Source: Betaproteobacteria bacterium
Lineage (GTDB): Bacteria > Bdellovibrionota_B > Oligoflexia > Silvanigrellales > Silvanigrellaceae
Assembly (NCBI GenBank): GCA_016868315.1
Contig: VGHE01000004.1
Coordinates: 186,001-250,000 of the forward strand
DNA: 64,000 bases
Direction of reading: 5' to 3'
Shown here: positions 929-64,000 of the stretch, in pieces
Layout of the letters: each line of letters starts with the position of its first letter
Numbering within the stretch: position 1 is the stretch's first letter
Notes under the pieces: model-generated
What the model was told of the DNA's origin: nothing
The model's database searches: none
Seen by the model: the letters and a program-made list of their open reading frames with translations, nothing else
Translations under genes and position numbers: made by a program

Positions 929-2398
929 TTAAATCTGCAACGTCCAGCGTGTGCCACGGGGTGTGTCTTGGATCACAACACCTTGCGAAAGAAGTTCGTC
1001 CCGGATGAGATCGGCCGCCTTCCAATCTTTGGCTGCTCGAGCTGTTTGTCTGTCACCCAATTTACGTTCGATGTCGTCGGGACTGAGTTGTCCGCCCAAG
1101 CGGTACTGTGCAAGGTTTGCAAAAAATTCTGCGGGTGTGCTCTGCACAAGACCAAGTGTTTGTGTGAGCCAAGCCTTGGCGACCGGCCAGGTTTGATTGA
1201 GACGTTTTTTGTCGGTCGGGTGCAGCGACTTTCCTGCTTTTTCATTTGCTGCAAGGCCGCTGTTGATGGCACGAACCGTTTCAAAAAAGACTCCCATGGC
1301 TGCTGCGCTGTTGAGGTCATCAGAGAGTGCATCGCGCATCTTTTGGGTGAGATGCTCCAACGACGAGAGAACCTCAATGCTGCTAGCGTTGGTTTCTGAA
1401 TCTTCCTCATGCGCATAGCGGTCGAGTAGCTCAACGAAACGGTAAATCTTGGCAAGTTTTTTGAAGTTTTCTTCGGCTAATTCCATGGTGAAGTCGAGTG
1501 GCTGCGCATACGAAACCGACAAAAATGTGAGGCGCAGAACCTCCTGCGGATACTTTTCAAGGAAGTCTGCAATCGATACAAAGTGGTTTGTGCTCTTGGA
1601 CATTTTCTCGCCATAGAGCGTAACCATGCCGGCGTGCAGCCAGAAGGAAGCAAAATTTTTGCCGGTGGCACCCTCGGATTGGGCAATCTCTGCTTCATGG
1701 TGTGGGAAGATCAGATCGCGGCCACCCATGTGAATATCTATGCTTTCACCAAACAGAGCATGGATCATGGCAGAACACTCAATGTGCCAGCCGGGGCGTC
1801 CATCGCCCCAGGGGCTCTGCCATTTGATTTCGCCCGGTTTTGCAAATTTCCAGAGGGCAAAATCGAGAGGATCTTCTTTGGATTCGTCGACCTCAATACG
1901 CACGCCCTTTTGGAGGTCATCGATGTTGTTCTTGCTGAGTTTGCCGTAGCCTGAGAATTTACGCACTCGATAATAAACACCACTCGATGAGACGTATGCG
2001 TATTCCCGGTTGATGAGGGTTTGAATCATGTCGACGATGTTTTGAATATTCTCGGTCACCTTGGGTTCATGTTGAGGGCGATGCAAGTTGAAGTGCTTGA
2101 GCATTTCATCTTGTTCACCCACATAGCGGTTAACGATATCTTCACAACTCACGCCCTCATCGTTTGCCTTTTTAATGATTTTATCGTCGACGTCGGTGAT
2201 ATTGCGCGCCCATTGAACATCGTAATTTTGATCGACGAGCGTGCGATAAAGCAAATCGTATGAAAAGAATGTGCGGCTATGACCAATGTGAGTGTTGCTG
2301 TAGGGAGTGACGCCGCAGCAGTACATTTTGACCTGACGGCTGGCGGTGCGAAAGGGTTCTTTACGGCCTGTCAGGGTATTGTAAAATTGCAAAGCCAT
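929..2398 (-). CDS. cysS: Cysteinyl-tRNA synthetase
   Basis: This class I aminoacyl-tRNA synthetase charges tRNA-Cys in the cytoplasm. At 489 residues it is slightly longer than the usual 460. The N-terminal [16 protein letters not shown] block holds the zinc cysteine (Cys27/28) and the HIGH motif (37-40). The WHIECSAM and [11 protein letters not shown] blocks give the remaining zinc ligands, and [11 protein letters not shown] is the KMSKS loop. The C-terminal half is the helical DALR/anticodon region. It lies downstream of dnaJ on the same strand, but a strong terminator separates the two, so cysS probably has its own promoter or relies on readthrough. Confidence 0.97.
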
Positions 2399-2433
2399 GC
2401 GTGTGATTCCCCGTGTAACTGCGAATTGAAATC

Positions 2434-2460
2434 AAAAAAAACCAGAGCAGCAGCTCTGGT
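2434..2460 (-). terminator. Rho-independent terminator after dnaJ
   Basis: A perfect 8-bp inverted repeat ACCAGAGC/GCTCTGGT with a 4-nt loop (2441-2460) is followed on the - strand by seven T residues (2434-2440). It lies 22 bases past the dnaJ stop and just upstream of cysS. Confidence 0.85.
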
Positions 2461-2482
2461 TGATGCGTTCTCGGATGAGAGT

Positions 2483-3622
2483 TTATCCGAAAATTCGGTC
2501 AAAGAAACCGCTCCCCTGCCCTTTGACGGCCTCACCATGTTTTTCGGCGAAGGCGCGCAAATGATCCTCGGCATCCTTTGATATTTTAGTAGGAATTTCG
2601 ACTGAAATCTCGATTATCAGATCGCCTTTGCCGCGTCCGTATTTTTCAAGTTTCGGCACACCCGCGCCCTGAATGATAAGGCGCTGGTTGGGTTGGACTC
2701 CTGCCGGGATGTCGATTCTGCGCGGCTCTTCTTCAAAGCAATCCACCAATATTTCGGTTCCCAGAATGGCTTGCGCAACTCCGAGCTTCAACGGATAGAC
2801 GAGGTCAAACTCTTCGCGCTTGAGCTTGGCATCTTCGGCAACATCAATGAATACGTAAAGATCACCCGAGGGACCACCGTTGGCTCCCGCTTCGCCCTCA
2901 CCCGCAACGCGCAAGCGCATACCTGAGTCGATGCCGGGAGGGATTTTAACTGTAATGGTGCTGGTTTTGGTGATGTGACCGGTGCCGCGGCAGTCACCGC
3001 AGGGGGTTGCAATCTTTTTGCCACTGCCGTTGCAGTCTGGGCAGGTGCTTGCGTAGCTGAAGAACCCTTGTTGGATCACGACCTGACCCTGTCCGCGACA
3101 CGTGTTGCAGGACACTGGCTTTGTGCCCTTTGCGGCGCCGGTTCCTTCGCACGATGTGCATTGTGCACGGCGTGGGATTTCAATTTTCTTTTCTGTTCCC
3201 AGAACCGCTTCCTTGAAGGGAATCTGGAGATCGTAACGCAAATCAGCACCGCGTCGGGCGCGGTTGCCACCACCGCGGCGCCGCCCCGCTCCACCCTGCA
3301 TGCCTCCGAAGCCAAAAATATCCTCAAAAATCGAACCGAAGTGTTCAAAAATGTCGTCCACATTGTTGAAGCCACCCGCTCCACCGGCACCCTGCACGCC
3401 GGCGTGACCAAATTGGTCGTAGCGTCGGCGTTTATCGGTATCACTGAGAACTTCGTAGGCTTCAGCAGCCTCTTTGAATTTTTCCTCGGCAGCCTTATCG
3501 CCCGGGTTTTTGTCGGGATGGAACTGCAGGGCAAGCTTGCGGTAGGCGCGCTTTACTTCGTCTGCCGCTGCAGAACGGGCAACGCCAAGAATTTCATAGT
3601 AGTCGCGCTTTTGCTGAGCCAT
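2483..3622 (-). CDS. dnaJ: Chaperone protein DnaJ (type I Hsp40)
   Basis: This is the co-chaperone that delivers unfolded clients to DnaK and stimulates its ATPase. At 379 residues it is full length. The domain order is classical: a J domain with the HPD tripeptide in [12 protein letters not shown], a Gly/Phe-rich stretch ([17 protein letters not shown] and [14 protein letters not shown]), four zinc repeats ([32 protein letters not shown]), and then two client-binding beta domains. No dnaK or grpE lies next to it. The flanking terminator and upstream promoter-like sequence suggest a single-gene transcript. Confidence 0.97.
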
Positions 3623-3671
3623 GGTTGATCCTCATACACGTGCCGGCTTCGGTCTGCCCGCGAGCATGAGA

Positions 3672-59886: not shown

Positions 59887-60843
59887 GTGAAGCAGGAAAA
59901 AAAACCAGAAAATGAACTGACTCGTACAAGCGTAGAGCGGCAGATCCTCAGTAGCCTCGGAATGACTCCCGCTCGCTTGCAGCGCGATGTGGATGCTTGG
60001 CTGGAAGAGGATTTTGGTGGTGGGGATCCGAGTGTCTGGACCCAGTCCGCACTGGGAACGCGCATGCGTGTTGAGATTGTCGCCAAGCAGGAGTTCATCT
60101 TGTGTGGCCTCCCATTCATGGCTCTGATTTTTCAAAAAACGCACGGCCATATTCCTGTTCAGTTGCACTCGACCTTCAATGACGGTGAGACCGTGCGGCG
60201 CGGCGACATTATTCTTTCCGGCGAGGGAGATGCAGCAGCTCTTCTGTTGGGAGAACGCGTGGCATTGAATTTGGCTGCACGCCTCAGCGGAATTGCAAAC
60301 AAAACCCACGCCATGAAACTTTTGGTCGAGAGAGCCTCGGCCAGACAGAATTTGGGTGCACCGCAGCTCCTTGAAACCCGCAAGACCACTCCTGGTCTGC
60401 GCCTCTACGAAAAGTATGCAACCCGTGTCGGTGGTGCGCGCAACCATCGTCATGCACTCGATACCGGTCTTATGCTGAAGGAAAATCATTTGCGCAGTTT
60501 TGGCGGAGTGAGCGGCGCTCTTGGCAAGGCTCGTGCAAACGCACCCATTCTGACACGTGTAGAAATTGAAGTGTCCAACCTGCGTGAGTTTGCTGAAGCA
60601 CTCGAAGGTGGAGCAGACGTCATCATGCTCGATAATTTTTCCGTGCAGGACATTCAATCTGCGGTTGAATTGCGGAAAGATCGCAGACGTTCAGTGGCGC
60701 TCGAGGTGAGTGGAAATTTAACAGAAGAAAACATTGCAGCAGTTGCTCAACTTGGCGTTGATTATTTGAGCTCGGGCGCTCTCATACACCAAGCTACGTG
60801 GGTTGACATGAGTCTGCAGCTCTATCCAATAGGCCAGAAATGA
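59887..60843 (+). CDS. nadC: Nicotinate-nucleotide pyrophosphorylase (quinolinate phosphoribosyltransferase)
   Basis: This enzyme makes nicotinate mononucleotide from quinolinate and PRPP in de novo NAD synthesis. The 318-residue protein starts with GTG (59887) after a GAGGGAG. It shows the family blocks ETRKTTPGLRLYEKYA, GGARNHRHALDTGLMLKENH and VEIEVSNLREFAEALEGGAD. At the C-terminal end, VDYLSSGALIHQ replaces the more usual VDxISxGALTHS. It overlaps the BirA-CoaX-RluA gene by 4 bases (ATGA), forming a cofactor-linked operon. Confidence 0.95.
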   Translation: MKQEKKPENELTRTSVERQILSSLGMTPARLQRDVDAWLEEDFGGGDPSVWTQSALGTRMRVEIVAKQEFILCGLPFMALIFQKTHGHIPVQLHSTFNDGETVRRGDIILSGEGDAAALLLGERVALNLAARLSGIANKTHAMKLLVERASARQNLGAPQLLETRKTTPGLRLYEKYATRVGGARNHRHALDTGLMLKENHLRSFGGVSGALGKARANAPILTRVEIEVSNLREFAEALEGGADVIMLDNFSVQDIQSAVELRKDRRRSVALEVSGNLTEENIAAVAQLGVDYLSSGALIHQATWVDMSLQLYPIGQK

Positions 60844-63839
60844 AAGCCCTTTTTCGAGATGAAACAACCTCCACCATGGACTGGGCACGTGAGTGTGTCA
60901 CACAGGGCGGAGTGAGCGAACCCTTTGTGGTGATGGCTCGCATGCAGACAGCCGGACGTGGACGTGGCGGAAGCACCTGGGTGCAAGGTTCTGTGGGTGC
61001 ACTCGAAAGTGAGCTCTCCTCTGCGGCTTATTTGGCTCATGCGAGTTTGCCAGACGCAGTTGCAGCGCACGGATGTTTTGGTCCGTGCACATTTGTTTTT
61101 CCGGCCAGCGCGATCCGAATTCCCTTGACCTGGATGAGTCTTGCTGTGGGCTGTGCGCTCTTGGATGCAATTGAATCTGTGCGTCGACGGCTCGAAAATC
61201 AACTCGGATTTGTGAAGCTCTTTCCGAGTAAAGATCTTTATGAACCTCGCATCAAATGGCCCAATGATCTGTGGGCTTGGCCAACATCCGGGCGCGCTTC
61301 CGACCAAAACCGCGGTCGAAAAATTGCAGGAGTGCTCTGTGAATCTTCTTTCCGTGGCGATGTTCTGCAGAACGTCACTGTCGGCATTGGTCTGAATACA
61401 TTTTCAGCTCCTGCAACCGTTTTTCACTCCGGCTGCCTGCTTGATATGTGGGGAGTGTCTCCCAAATCGATTTCACCTGCGCAGGAGCGCCAGGTCGAAG
61501 TCTTATTGGCAGAGGAGATTGAACGAGAGTTGGCCGACTATCTCGGCGTACAGCGCTCGGTCGAACAACTTCAGTCCCTCGTGCTTGAACGCTCGCTCCC
61601 GCCTGGGACACTCATGAGTGTGAACAAAGGAGAGGTCAGCGGAGCTTTTGTTGGCCTTTCTGCTGAGGGCGGCCTTTTGCTCGAGGGATTCAAGGAGCCC
61701 GTTTTGTCGGGCGACGTTGGATTGCCACGCTTTGAGAATATGATTTCTGCCCTCCCAGCTTCCACATCTCGGGCTGTTCAGGCGCGTCTGTGTCTCGATT
61801 TTGGCAATAGCCATATTCATTGGCGCTGTGAATCGAGCCAGGGTGTTCTGCAAGGTCATCTGCCTTGGAATCTTGTCGAAAAGAAAACAGTTCAAGATCC
61901 ACGTGCTTTTGCGCGCCTCGAATTTTCGCGTGAGGTTGCTGAGCACCTGAGGCAAAGTCTGCAGGTTGAGTTGGTTTGGTCTGCCGTATCGCATGCCGGG
62001 ATGACTGCAAAGTTCGTTGCGGCCACGGAGAATTTACTTGTGGCGCATTCTCCTGGGCGCGAGATGGCGTTGCATCCTTTGCACGCCGACGAAATTCTTC
62101 AGGCCTGTGCGCTGGCTGCAGATTATGCGCCCGAGCAGATGGGTGTTGACCGAGCTTTGCAGGCCTGGATCGCTGCGCGCGAGGCGCGTGCTGCGGCATC
62201 GTCTGTGGCTGTGCTTTCTTCCGGCACCGCGCTCACGGGATTGGTGGTCAGTGCACATGGGCGCATTGTTGAAAGTTTTATTCTTCCGGGTGCCGTTCTT
62301 GGATTGGCTGCGCTTCACGAAAAGACCGCTCGTCTTCCGCATGTCTCTTTGCCACGCATGCTACCTGAGATACGCGAGGAACCACCCTTCAACACCCAGC
62401 AGTCGATGCTGCGGGGTTTAACTCTGCAGACGCTTGGGTTGGTCTCGAGTCTTGTGCAATTGCACGATGTCCGCACTCTCGTGCTCACCGGTGGCGGAGC
62501 TGAGACGCTCTCCCAGCTGATTGAAAAAGAGTTTCCCCTCACTGTTCGAACCGAACAGGATCTTGTTCTTAAGGCCATGTCGGATTTCATTGCGCACCAG
62601 AGCCAGACTCGTTTTCGGTTGATGGCTGATGACGGTGAGACTGACTCAGGTGTGCCCGAGAAGGTTCTCCAGAGCATGCTTCGAGCGCGTCTAAGCAAGC
62701 GCAGAAGCCAACGTGTTGCGCTTGATTTGGCGCACTTTCGGCGCCTGGGCGGTCGTCTTGAGCACCTGGGTGTGGGACTCCGGATCGACCGCCACCTTGC
62801 AGAAAAGTTCAAATTTCACACCCGCGATCTTTGGCGCGAGCGAGTTGATCTTGGTGAGGTGATGATCGAGCAGAATTCACCTAAAAATCACCTGACTGAT
62901 TCCGCTCCTGCGGCACTTATCAACATCAAATCCACATACGTCTTAAAGCAGGGAGACCAGGTTTGGCTGTTCCATCCGCCGGAGTATGAGCCCGACATGG
63001 CAACCCATGTTGAAGTTGTGCACGACGATGGTGATGCAGCTGTTTTCTGCAAGCCAGGAAATTTGGTTGTGCATGCAGCCGGTTTGTACGGTAAAAACAC
63101 GTTTATCGAAATTGCCAAGAAAATGGGATTTGCAGATGCCGCACCCGTGCACCGTATCGACCGCGAAACCTCGGGATTGCTTGTGTGTGCCCGTTCGACT
63201 CCTCTGCGGAGGGATCTCTCACTCAGTTTTCGTGATGCCTCGGTGAAGAAAATGTATCTTGCAGTGACCCGCGGTGGTCCAGAGGTTCCGCAACATTTTC
63301 GTGTAAATTTTCCTATCGGAAACGCCATAAACTCTCGGATTCGATTGAAGCTTTGGCACAACCCAGATGATGGACTTGATGCGCTGACTCATTGCGTGCG
63401 ACTTTCGTGCTGGAACGATTACACACTGTTTGCCTGTCTTCCTCAAACGGGCCGCACCAACCAGATTCGAGTCCATCTTGCGGCCATTGGTCATTGGATT
63501 GTGGGCGATAAGATGTATCACCCCGATGAGGAGGTTTTTCTCAGGTTTTATGAAGAAGGTTATACTGATTTCGTTGCTGAGAATGCTTTGTTGCCGCGCC
63601 ACTGGCTGCACAACACAGGGATTCAGTTTTTGGGTCAGCCAGAGTCACCCTTAGGTCGTGCACCGGTGATTGCGCCTCTCACAGAAGATCTTTTGGTGCA
63701 CGCTCCGACGCGCGAACTCTTGCGTGTTGCTGGATTTCCGACCGAACCCGAAGCGCAAAAAAAGGCGTTTGCAAAACTTTTTGCGGAACTGGTTTCAATT
63801 GATTTCACAAGAACAGAATTCATTGCGCCTGAGGCTTGA
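60840..63839 (+). CDS. BirA-CoaX-RluA fusion: biotin ligase, type III pantothenate kinase, pseudouridine synthase
   Basis: One open frame of 999 residues joins three enzymes. Residues 1-310 are a biotin-protein ligase (GRGRGG near 39-44, IKWPNDLW near 138, GRKIAGVLCESS, and an SH3-like end) without an N-terminal DNA-binding domain. Residues about 318-580 are a type III pantothenate kinase (DFGNSHIHW at 320, GVDRALQAW at 435); its GTA motif reads SSGTALTGL, where family members usually have Asp residues. Residues about 645-999 are an RluA-type pseudouridine synthase with S4 domain and catalytic Asp774 in HRIDRETSGLL. BirA-CoaX fusions are known; adding RluA is unusual. It is coupled to nadC by a 4-base overlap. 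Confidence 0.9.
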   Translation: MKALFRDETTSTMDWARECVTQGGVSEPFVVMARMQTAGRGRGGSTWVQGSVGALESELSSAAYLAHASLPDAVAAHGCFGPCTFVFPASAIRIPLTWMSLAVGCALLDAIESVRRRLENQLGFVKLFPSKDLYEPRIKWPNDLWAWPTSGRASDQNRGRKIAGVLCESSFRGDVLQNVTVGIGLNTFSAPATVFHSGCLLDMWGVSPKSISPAQERQVEVLLAEEIERELADYLGVQRSVEQLQSLVLERSLPPGTLMSVNKGEVSGAFVGLSAEGGLLLEGFKEPVLSGDVGLPRFENMISALPASTSRAVQARLCLDFGNSHIHWRCESSQGVLQGHLPWNLVEKKTVQDPRAFARLEFSREVAEHLRQSLQVELVWSAVSHAGMTAKFVAATENLLVAHSPGREMALHPLHADEILQACALAADYAPEQMGVDRALQAWIAAREARAAASSVAVLSSGTALTGLVVSAHGRIVESFILPGAVLGLAALHEKTARLPHVSLPRMLPEIREEPPFNTQQSMLRGLTLQTLGLVSSLVQLHDVRTLVLTGGGAETLSQLIEKEFPLTVRTEQDLVLKAMSDFIAHQSQTRFRLMADDGETDSGVPEKVLQSMLRARLSKRRSQRVALDLAHFRRLGGRLEHLGVGLRIDRHLAEKFKFHTRDLWRERVDLGEVMIEQNSPKNHLTDSAPAALINIKSTYVLKQGDQVWLFHPPEYEPDMATHVEVVHDDGDAAVFCKPGNLVVHAAGLYGKNTFIEIAKKMGFADAAPVHRIDRETSGLLVCARSTPLRRDLSLSFRDASVKKMYLAVTRGGPEVPQHFRVNFPIGNAINSRIRLKLWHNPDDGLDALTHCVRLSCWNDYTLFACLPQTGRTNQIRVHLAAIGHWIVGDKMYHPDEEVFLRFYEEGYTDFVAENALLPRHWLHNTGIQFLGQPESPLGRAPVIAPLTEDLLVHAPTRELLRVAGFPTEPEAQKKAFAKLFAELVSIDFTRTEFIAPEA

Positions 63840-63841
63840 AG

Positions 63842-64000
63842 ATGTCTGGTTCAACTGCCTCATCAGCTTTCGCTCTCATCACTGACATTCATGGCAATGC
63901 CACTGCACTTGAGGCGGTGCTTGAAGATGTAAGGCAGATGCGTGCTCAGCACGGAACAGATTCGTTCGAGTTTGTTTGTTTGGGTGACAGCTTTGATGGT
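63842..64000 (+). CDS. Calcineurin-like metallophosphoesterase, 3' truncated by the window
   Basis: Fifty-three codons are visible before the window ends. The N-terminus reads ALITDIHGNATALEAVL and then FVCLGDSFDG, the first two metal-binding motifs (D-x-H and G-D) of the metallophosphoesterase fold. The DIHGN form points to the YfcE/diadenosine tetraphosphatase-like group. It starts 2 bases after the fusion gene and is probably in the same operon. Confidence 0.85.
   Translation, partial: MSGSTASSAFALITDIHGNATALEAVLEDVRQMRAQHGTDSFEFVCLGDSFDG

Follow-up and report, generated by a model that had tools for sequence, protein, structure and literature searches.

Bifunctional proteins that join a biotin protein ligase (BirA) to a type III pantothenate kinase (CoaX) are known from annotated genomes. 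Pseudouridine synthases too have been described as parts of larger proteins. Yeast Rib2 carries one at its N-terminus, fused to a deaminase of the riboflavin pathway that stands alone in moulds (PMC8256712), and in Vibrio cholerae TrcP, a larger multidomain protein, a C-terminal RluA-family synthase is combined with an RNA-editing deaminase that acts on the same tRNA, the two activities being sequential (PMC9553926). Here we analysed a stretch of 64,000 nucleotides (the window; positions 186,001 to 250,000 of contig VGHE01000004.1, assembly GCA_016868315.1, forward strand) from a draft genome of 3.24 Mb placed in the order Silvanigrellales of the class Oligoflexia, and describe in it a gene whose product carries BirA-like, CoaX and RluA-family domains on one chain.

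Up to the end of its CoaX domain the protein resembles the bifunctional fusions in the BirA-then-CoaX order, in its nadC neighbour and in an altered GTA motif of the kinase, and its relatives in the class are exactly such proteins. They end after CoaX, however, at about 470–615 codons, whereas in the Silvanigrellales fusion an RluA domain follows. This domain shares with the RluA/RluC/RluD family (TIGR00005, PF00849) the S4-plus-catalytic span, the HRxDRxTSG and TGRTxQIRVH motifs and the fold, but it falls in a separate subfamily, is N-terminally fused and scores below the TIGR00005 cut-off. As in Rib2, a pseudouridine synthase domain is combined with cofactor synthesis with no obvious metabolic link; Rib2 differs in being eukaryotic, in having two domains with the synthase at the N-terminus, and in serving riboflavin instead of biotin and coenzyme A (CoA). 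TrcP is similar in the C-terminal position of its synthase, but no sequential relation between activities is evident in the Silvanigrellales fusion. In appearance the locus is a long-standing fusion of two enzymes to which a third, in itself ordinary, was added, and not a novel type of system. The initial annotation of this DNA knew of no described addition of RluA to BirA-CoaX, and the open papers searched likewise contained no description of the three-part form; no paper on BirA-CoaX fusions or on Silvanigrella cofactor metabolism was found in the same literature. The one wide scan across named genomes relied on exact peptide patterns and so covered close relatives, from which an absence of the fusion in other phyla does not follow.

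Three enzyme domains in one reading frame

The gene is a single ATG-started open reading frame (ORF) of 999 codons plus stop on the forward strand, free of internal stops, and its three Pfam matches, all above the gathering score, follow one another in the order BirA, CoaX, RluA family (Table 1). The chance of a stop-free frame of this length at the composition of the stretch is about 6e-20. The initial reading of one frame encoding three enzymes with neither stop nor frameshift between them is thereby borne out, and the intact frames in related genomes described below exclude a missed stop codon.

The N-terminal part of the protein matched BPL_LplA_LipB (PF03099) with 44.6 bits, against a gathering cut-off of 21, and Foldseek on this domain returned biotin protein ligases. 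It carries the motifs GRGRGGSTW (at 60954) and KWPND (at 61254), the patterns GRGRxGxxW and KWPND being present in every member of the order that has the BirA domain, and lacks an N-terminal DNA-binding domain. An insertion separates the two motif blocks of this divergent domain, which reached 54.8 of the 83.1 bits required by the birA_ligase equivalog TIGR00121, a cut-off exceeded in none of the 15 genomes of the order; in strict wording it is therefore BirA-like. The BirA domain is the only TIGR00121 match in each of these 15 genomes.

The middle domain matched Pan_kinase (PF03309; 78.7 bits, cut-off 24.7, residues 317–540) and, by Foldseek, type III pantothenate kinases. The motifs DFGN (at 61797) and GVDR (at 62142) are kept, and DxGN/GxDR is invariant among members. 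At residues 460–464, where DxGTA is expected, the protein has SSGTA (at 62217), the alteration that the initial annotation had singled out.

The C-terminal domain matched PseudoU_synth_2 (PF00849; 78.1 bits, cut-off 26.8, residues 734–882), and Foldseek pointed to RluD, RluA and RluC. The catalytic Asp lies in HRIDRETSG (at 63150) and is invariant among members, all of which keep HR(I/L)DR(E/D)TSG; it is followed by TGRTNQIRVH (at 63447), for which one member, G014, has SGKTNQIRIH. TIGR00005 scored 144 bits over the S4-plus-catalytic span, below its cut-off, and the N-terminal part of the domain is probably S4-like. The linkers between the domains differ in length and sequence among genera and have low confidence in the structural model. 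In AlphaFold models built from five sequences, BirA and CoaX were the only domains of good quality (mean predicted local distance difference test score 56.8 for the whole chain and 54.4 for RluA alone), and contacts between domains were therefore not read off them.

Conservation within Silvanigrellales

The fusion was compared across the 15 genomes of the order. BirA, CoaX and RluA lie in one uninterrupted frame of 1002–1148 codons in 12 of them (G000–G003 and G005–G012), a search for this domain order in other genomes being the check that the initial annotation had suggested. These 12 span four genera and include two single-contig genomes (G010 and G011). The other three genomes differ. In G004 a BirA frame and a CoaX-RluA frame each run off a contig end, which fits a cut fusion. 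In G013, at the corresponding nadC locus, a single frame of 765 codons (L049:501-2795) encodes BirA and RluA, with about 67 residues in place of CoaX. In G014, the only member of a second family, CoaX and RluA share a 604-codon frame next to a convergent short BirA gene (L050:1204-1821 and 1817-3628); this gene has 206 codons, lacks the C-terminal part and overlaps CoaX-RluA by 5 nucleotides, an arrangement that resembles an inversion of birA to the opposite side of the fusion.

Each of the three domains is under purifying selection. The ratios of nonsynonymous to synonymous substitution were 0.05 (G008/G011) and 0.19 (G007/G012) for BirA, 0.11 and 0.08 for CoaX, and 0.05 and 0.05 for RluA in the same pairs; these were the two usable pairs, and the ratios are only approximate because synonymous sites in places approach saturation.

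Stepwise origin of the fusion

Across the 58 genomes surveyed in the class (a phylum-wide search gave the same 58), CoaX matches outside the order lay mostly in frames of 470–615 codons. All 30 of the class frames examined have BirA ahead of CoaX and none continues into RluA, in agreement with the earlier view of BirA-CoaX as the older unit. The RluA-type relatives of these genomes stand in separate frames elsewhere. Relatives with a separate rluA had been named beforehand as the observation that would speak against the fusion; they were found outside the order, where they represent the expected ancestral state, and not inside it. A nadC ortholog immediately precedes the fusion in the order, and in most of the class one immediately precedes BirA-CoaX.

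In the CoaX tree the members of the order form one clade (support 100/99), within or beside the BirA-CoaX fusions of the class and apart from the solo CoaX proteins of family f5 (100/100). The RluA tree, of 50 domains, likewise unites the 14 fused domains in one clade (99/97), sister to 24 standalone orthologs of the class (96/87), and the two groups together are separated from RluA, RluC, RluD and TruC of E. coli and from the other RluA-type paralogs of the order (100/99). The fusion has one origin. Transfer of the fusion from elsewhere is not supported, as both the CoaX and the RluA domains group with class relatives. Identity of the fused domain with RluA, RluC, RluD or TruC was ruled out by its separate clade, and its scores are far below all equivalog cut-offs for characterised RluA-family types. 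The genome also contains a separate RluD-like paralog (G000p2), which groups with E. coli RluD (99/96); a second copy of the fused subfamily was not seen in the genomes of the order.

BirA-CoaX behind nadC is thus supported, by these sequence comparisons, as the ancestral state of the class, and the two enzymes would have been fused already in the class ancestor. An rluA-type gene that had until then stood alone would later have been joined in frame to the 3' end of BirA-CoaX in the Silvanigrellales ancestor. The simplest history would have RluA joined once, at the base of the order, with CoaX lost later in G013 and BirA detached in G014. The order offers a clean, lineage-wide case of stepwise fusion, from BirA-CoaX behind nadC to BirA-CoaX-RluA.

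The same RluA subfamily was also met in another combination: in G022, of the same class, a 641-codon frame (L051:4805-6727) fuses the epoxyqueuosine reductase QueG to it, placing two RNA modification enzymes in one protein. This arrangement was seen in one genome only.

Supply of pantothenate kinase

None of the 12 genomes with the intact frame has a CoaX or BirA match other than the one in the fusion, so two activities that are expected to be essential rest on it there. Matches to the CoaA model in these genomes were weak and look like related P-loop kinases. G013, which falls within the fused clade but lacks the CoaX domain, alone has a strong CoaA-like match (L114:1322-2056; 115 bits with TIGR00554 vs 48 for uridine kinase), on a contig that also carries a valS nearest to that of genus g5 of the order (52–53%). 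G013 can be regarded as a natural experiment, a lineage in which the middle enzyme seems to have been exchanged. Such a pattern would be expected if the CoaX domains of the other members do phosphorylate pantothenate, and is no more than suggestive.

Function of the fused protein

We consider it probable that the gene encodes a trifunctional housekeeping enzyme in which all three predicted activities would be present, nadC and a metallophosphoesterase gene belonging to the same operon. The BirA module, being repressor-less, would convert biotin and ATP to biotinyl-AMP and transfer the biotinyl group to a lysine of the biotin carboxyl carrier. The CoaX module would form 4'-phosphopantothenate from pantothenate and ATP, the entry step of CoA synthesis, and the S4-RluA module would convert uridine to pseudouridine at a tRNA or rRNA site. 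The three catalytic modules are most likely independent and tied by flexible linkers, the protein presumably staying uncleaved, and the benefit of the fusion would lie in co-expression and a fixed stoichiometry, not in substrate channelling. One chain would thus combine an RNA-modifying enzyme with two enzymes that are expected to be essential, and annotation of Silvanigrellales genomes should name all three functions.

Several observations weigh against this trifunctional reading. The BirA and RluA domains score below the NCBIfam family cut-offs, and no member has the Asp of DxGTA in its CoaX domain, the residue there being S, G or T. G013 is a single metagenome-assembled genome of 72% completeness, and its CoaA-like protein, at 115 bits, falls short of the TIGR00554 cut-off of 235. 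The type II kinase model had no match in these genomes, nor in its own control, so absence of that type is not shown. Finally, four genomes of family f5 (G017, G018, G025 and G038) and one of family f13 (G056) had neither a CoaX nor a CoaA match, which implies that some pantothenate kinases may escape these models.

Loss of the Asp might be taken as a hint that the CoaX domain is a pseudokinase, a non-catalytic scaffold or sensor, with an unrecognised enzyme phosphorylating pantothenate. The BirA-CoaX fusions of the class also have another residue at this position (S, A, G, C, T or Q) while solo CoaX proteins of the class keep DFGTA, and a structure of M. tuberculosis CoaX complexed with Dop (PDB 9cku) indicates that CoaX folds can have other partners. 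However, neither of the two remaining conserved aspartate motifs varies, and the Asp is missing as well from the CoaX of Burkholderia thailandensis, which reads ATFGTATT at the same place, with T for Asp, and was crystallised under a PDB title that names pantothenate and phosphate as ligands. The Asp is therefore not universal in the CoaX family. In addition, no other recognisable pantothenate kinase was found in the 12 genomes, and the CoaX domain is missing where the CoaA-like kinase is present. We therefore regard a pseudokinase as improbable. Decay of the kinase particular to the window protein was ruled out by the class-wide occurrence of the change in BirA-CoaX fusions; the alteration is a subfamily trait and not a lesion of the window protein, and an SxGTA motif should be read in that way, not as a dead kinase by default.

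The frame could also be continuous while its products work as separate enzymes, released by proteolysis in the linkers or, for RluA, by an internal start, the fusion serving mainly as a co-expression device. The long, variable, low-confidence linkers are in line with this possibility, as is a Met at the CoaX-RluA boundary in most members, preceded 11 nucleotides upstream by GAGAAGG in G000 and G002. In G005 and G014, though, the Met column holds a Leu codon (CTC), no stretch resembling a ribosome-binding site occurs at that boundary in the other genera, and in 12 genomes the coding frame stays open across the linkers. We rejected an internal start for RluA, since neither a start codon nor a ribosome-binding site is conserved, and separate enzymes are on the whole unlikely. 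That the join is an assembly artefact or hides a missed stop codon has a practically negligible probability: the relatives are mostly draft assemblies and G004 is split over two contigs, but the same architecture recurs in 12 separate assemblies with intact frames, from four genera and including the two single-contig genomes, which rules it out, and both halves in G004 extend past the end of a contig, the pattern expected of a cut fusion.

In a regulatory fusion the RNA-binding RluA module and the cofactor enzymes would sense one another, for instance with RluA binding its own mRNA or the CoA or biotin state controlling pseudouridylation. The physical linkage, conserved through the order, and the overlap with nadC, another cofactor gene, would be compatible with this; yet G013 dropped CoaX and G014 has BirA apart while the rest was retained, exceptions which imply that strict coupling of the three domains is not required. 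We consider such a fusion very unlikely, and give equally little credence to the proposal that the C-terminal module, in binding or pseudouridylating RNA, either responds to biotin transfer or CoA synthesis or controls one of them. Such coupling, if true, would tie RNA modification directly to the supply of cofactors. The initial annotation had asserted a link of this kind, for which nothing beyond physical and operon linkage speaks.

Operon and neighbouring features

The stop codon of nadC and the ATG of the fusion gene overlap by 4 nucleotides (ATGA), confirming the overlap reported initially, and the metallophosphoesterase gene begins 2 nucleotides after the fusion stop; the fusion gene therefore lies in a tightly packed operon.

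Table 1. Features of the fusion locus, in window coordinates.
Feature	Position	Strand	Basis or remark
nadC (quinolinate phosphoribosyltransferase)	59887..60843	+	ORF list; upstream gene of the operon; exact start uncertain
BirA-CoaX-RluA fusion gene	60840..63839	+	999 residues plus stop
BirA catalytic domain, residues about 1–300	60840..61739	+	PF03099, motifs, Foldseek
CoaX domain, residues about 314–590	61779..62609	+	PF03309, motif columns, Foldseek
CoaX-RluA linker, residues about 591–630, with conserved SMLRAR segment	62610..62729	+	alignment of 14 members
RluA-family pseudouridine synthase domain, residues about 631–950	62730..63689	+	PF00849, TIGR00005, tree, Foldseek
C-terminal extension of the fusion, residues about 951–999	63690..63836	+	alignment
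Metallophosphoesterase gene, start only	63842..64000	+	continues past the window

The full metallophosphoesterase frame (L055:9834-10808) matched PF00149 with 41.5 bits, and in G001 its ortholog overlaps the fusion by 4 nucleotides. Just past the end of the window, a gene of the same genome (L055:10757-12148) is interrupted by a stop codon in frame; its counterpart in the sister species G001 (L057:5471-6811) is one frame of 446 codons and looks, by eye, like an outer-membrane beta-barrel.

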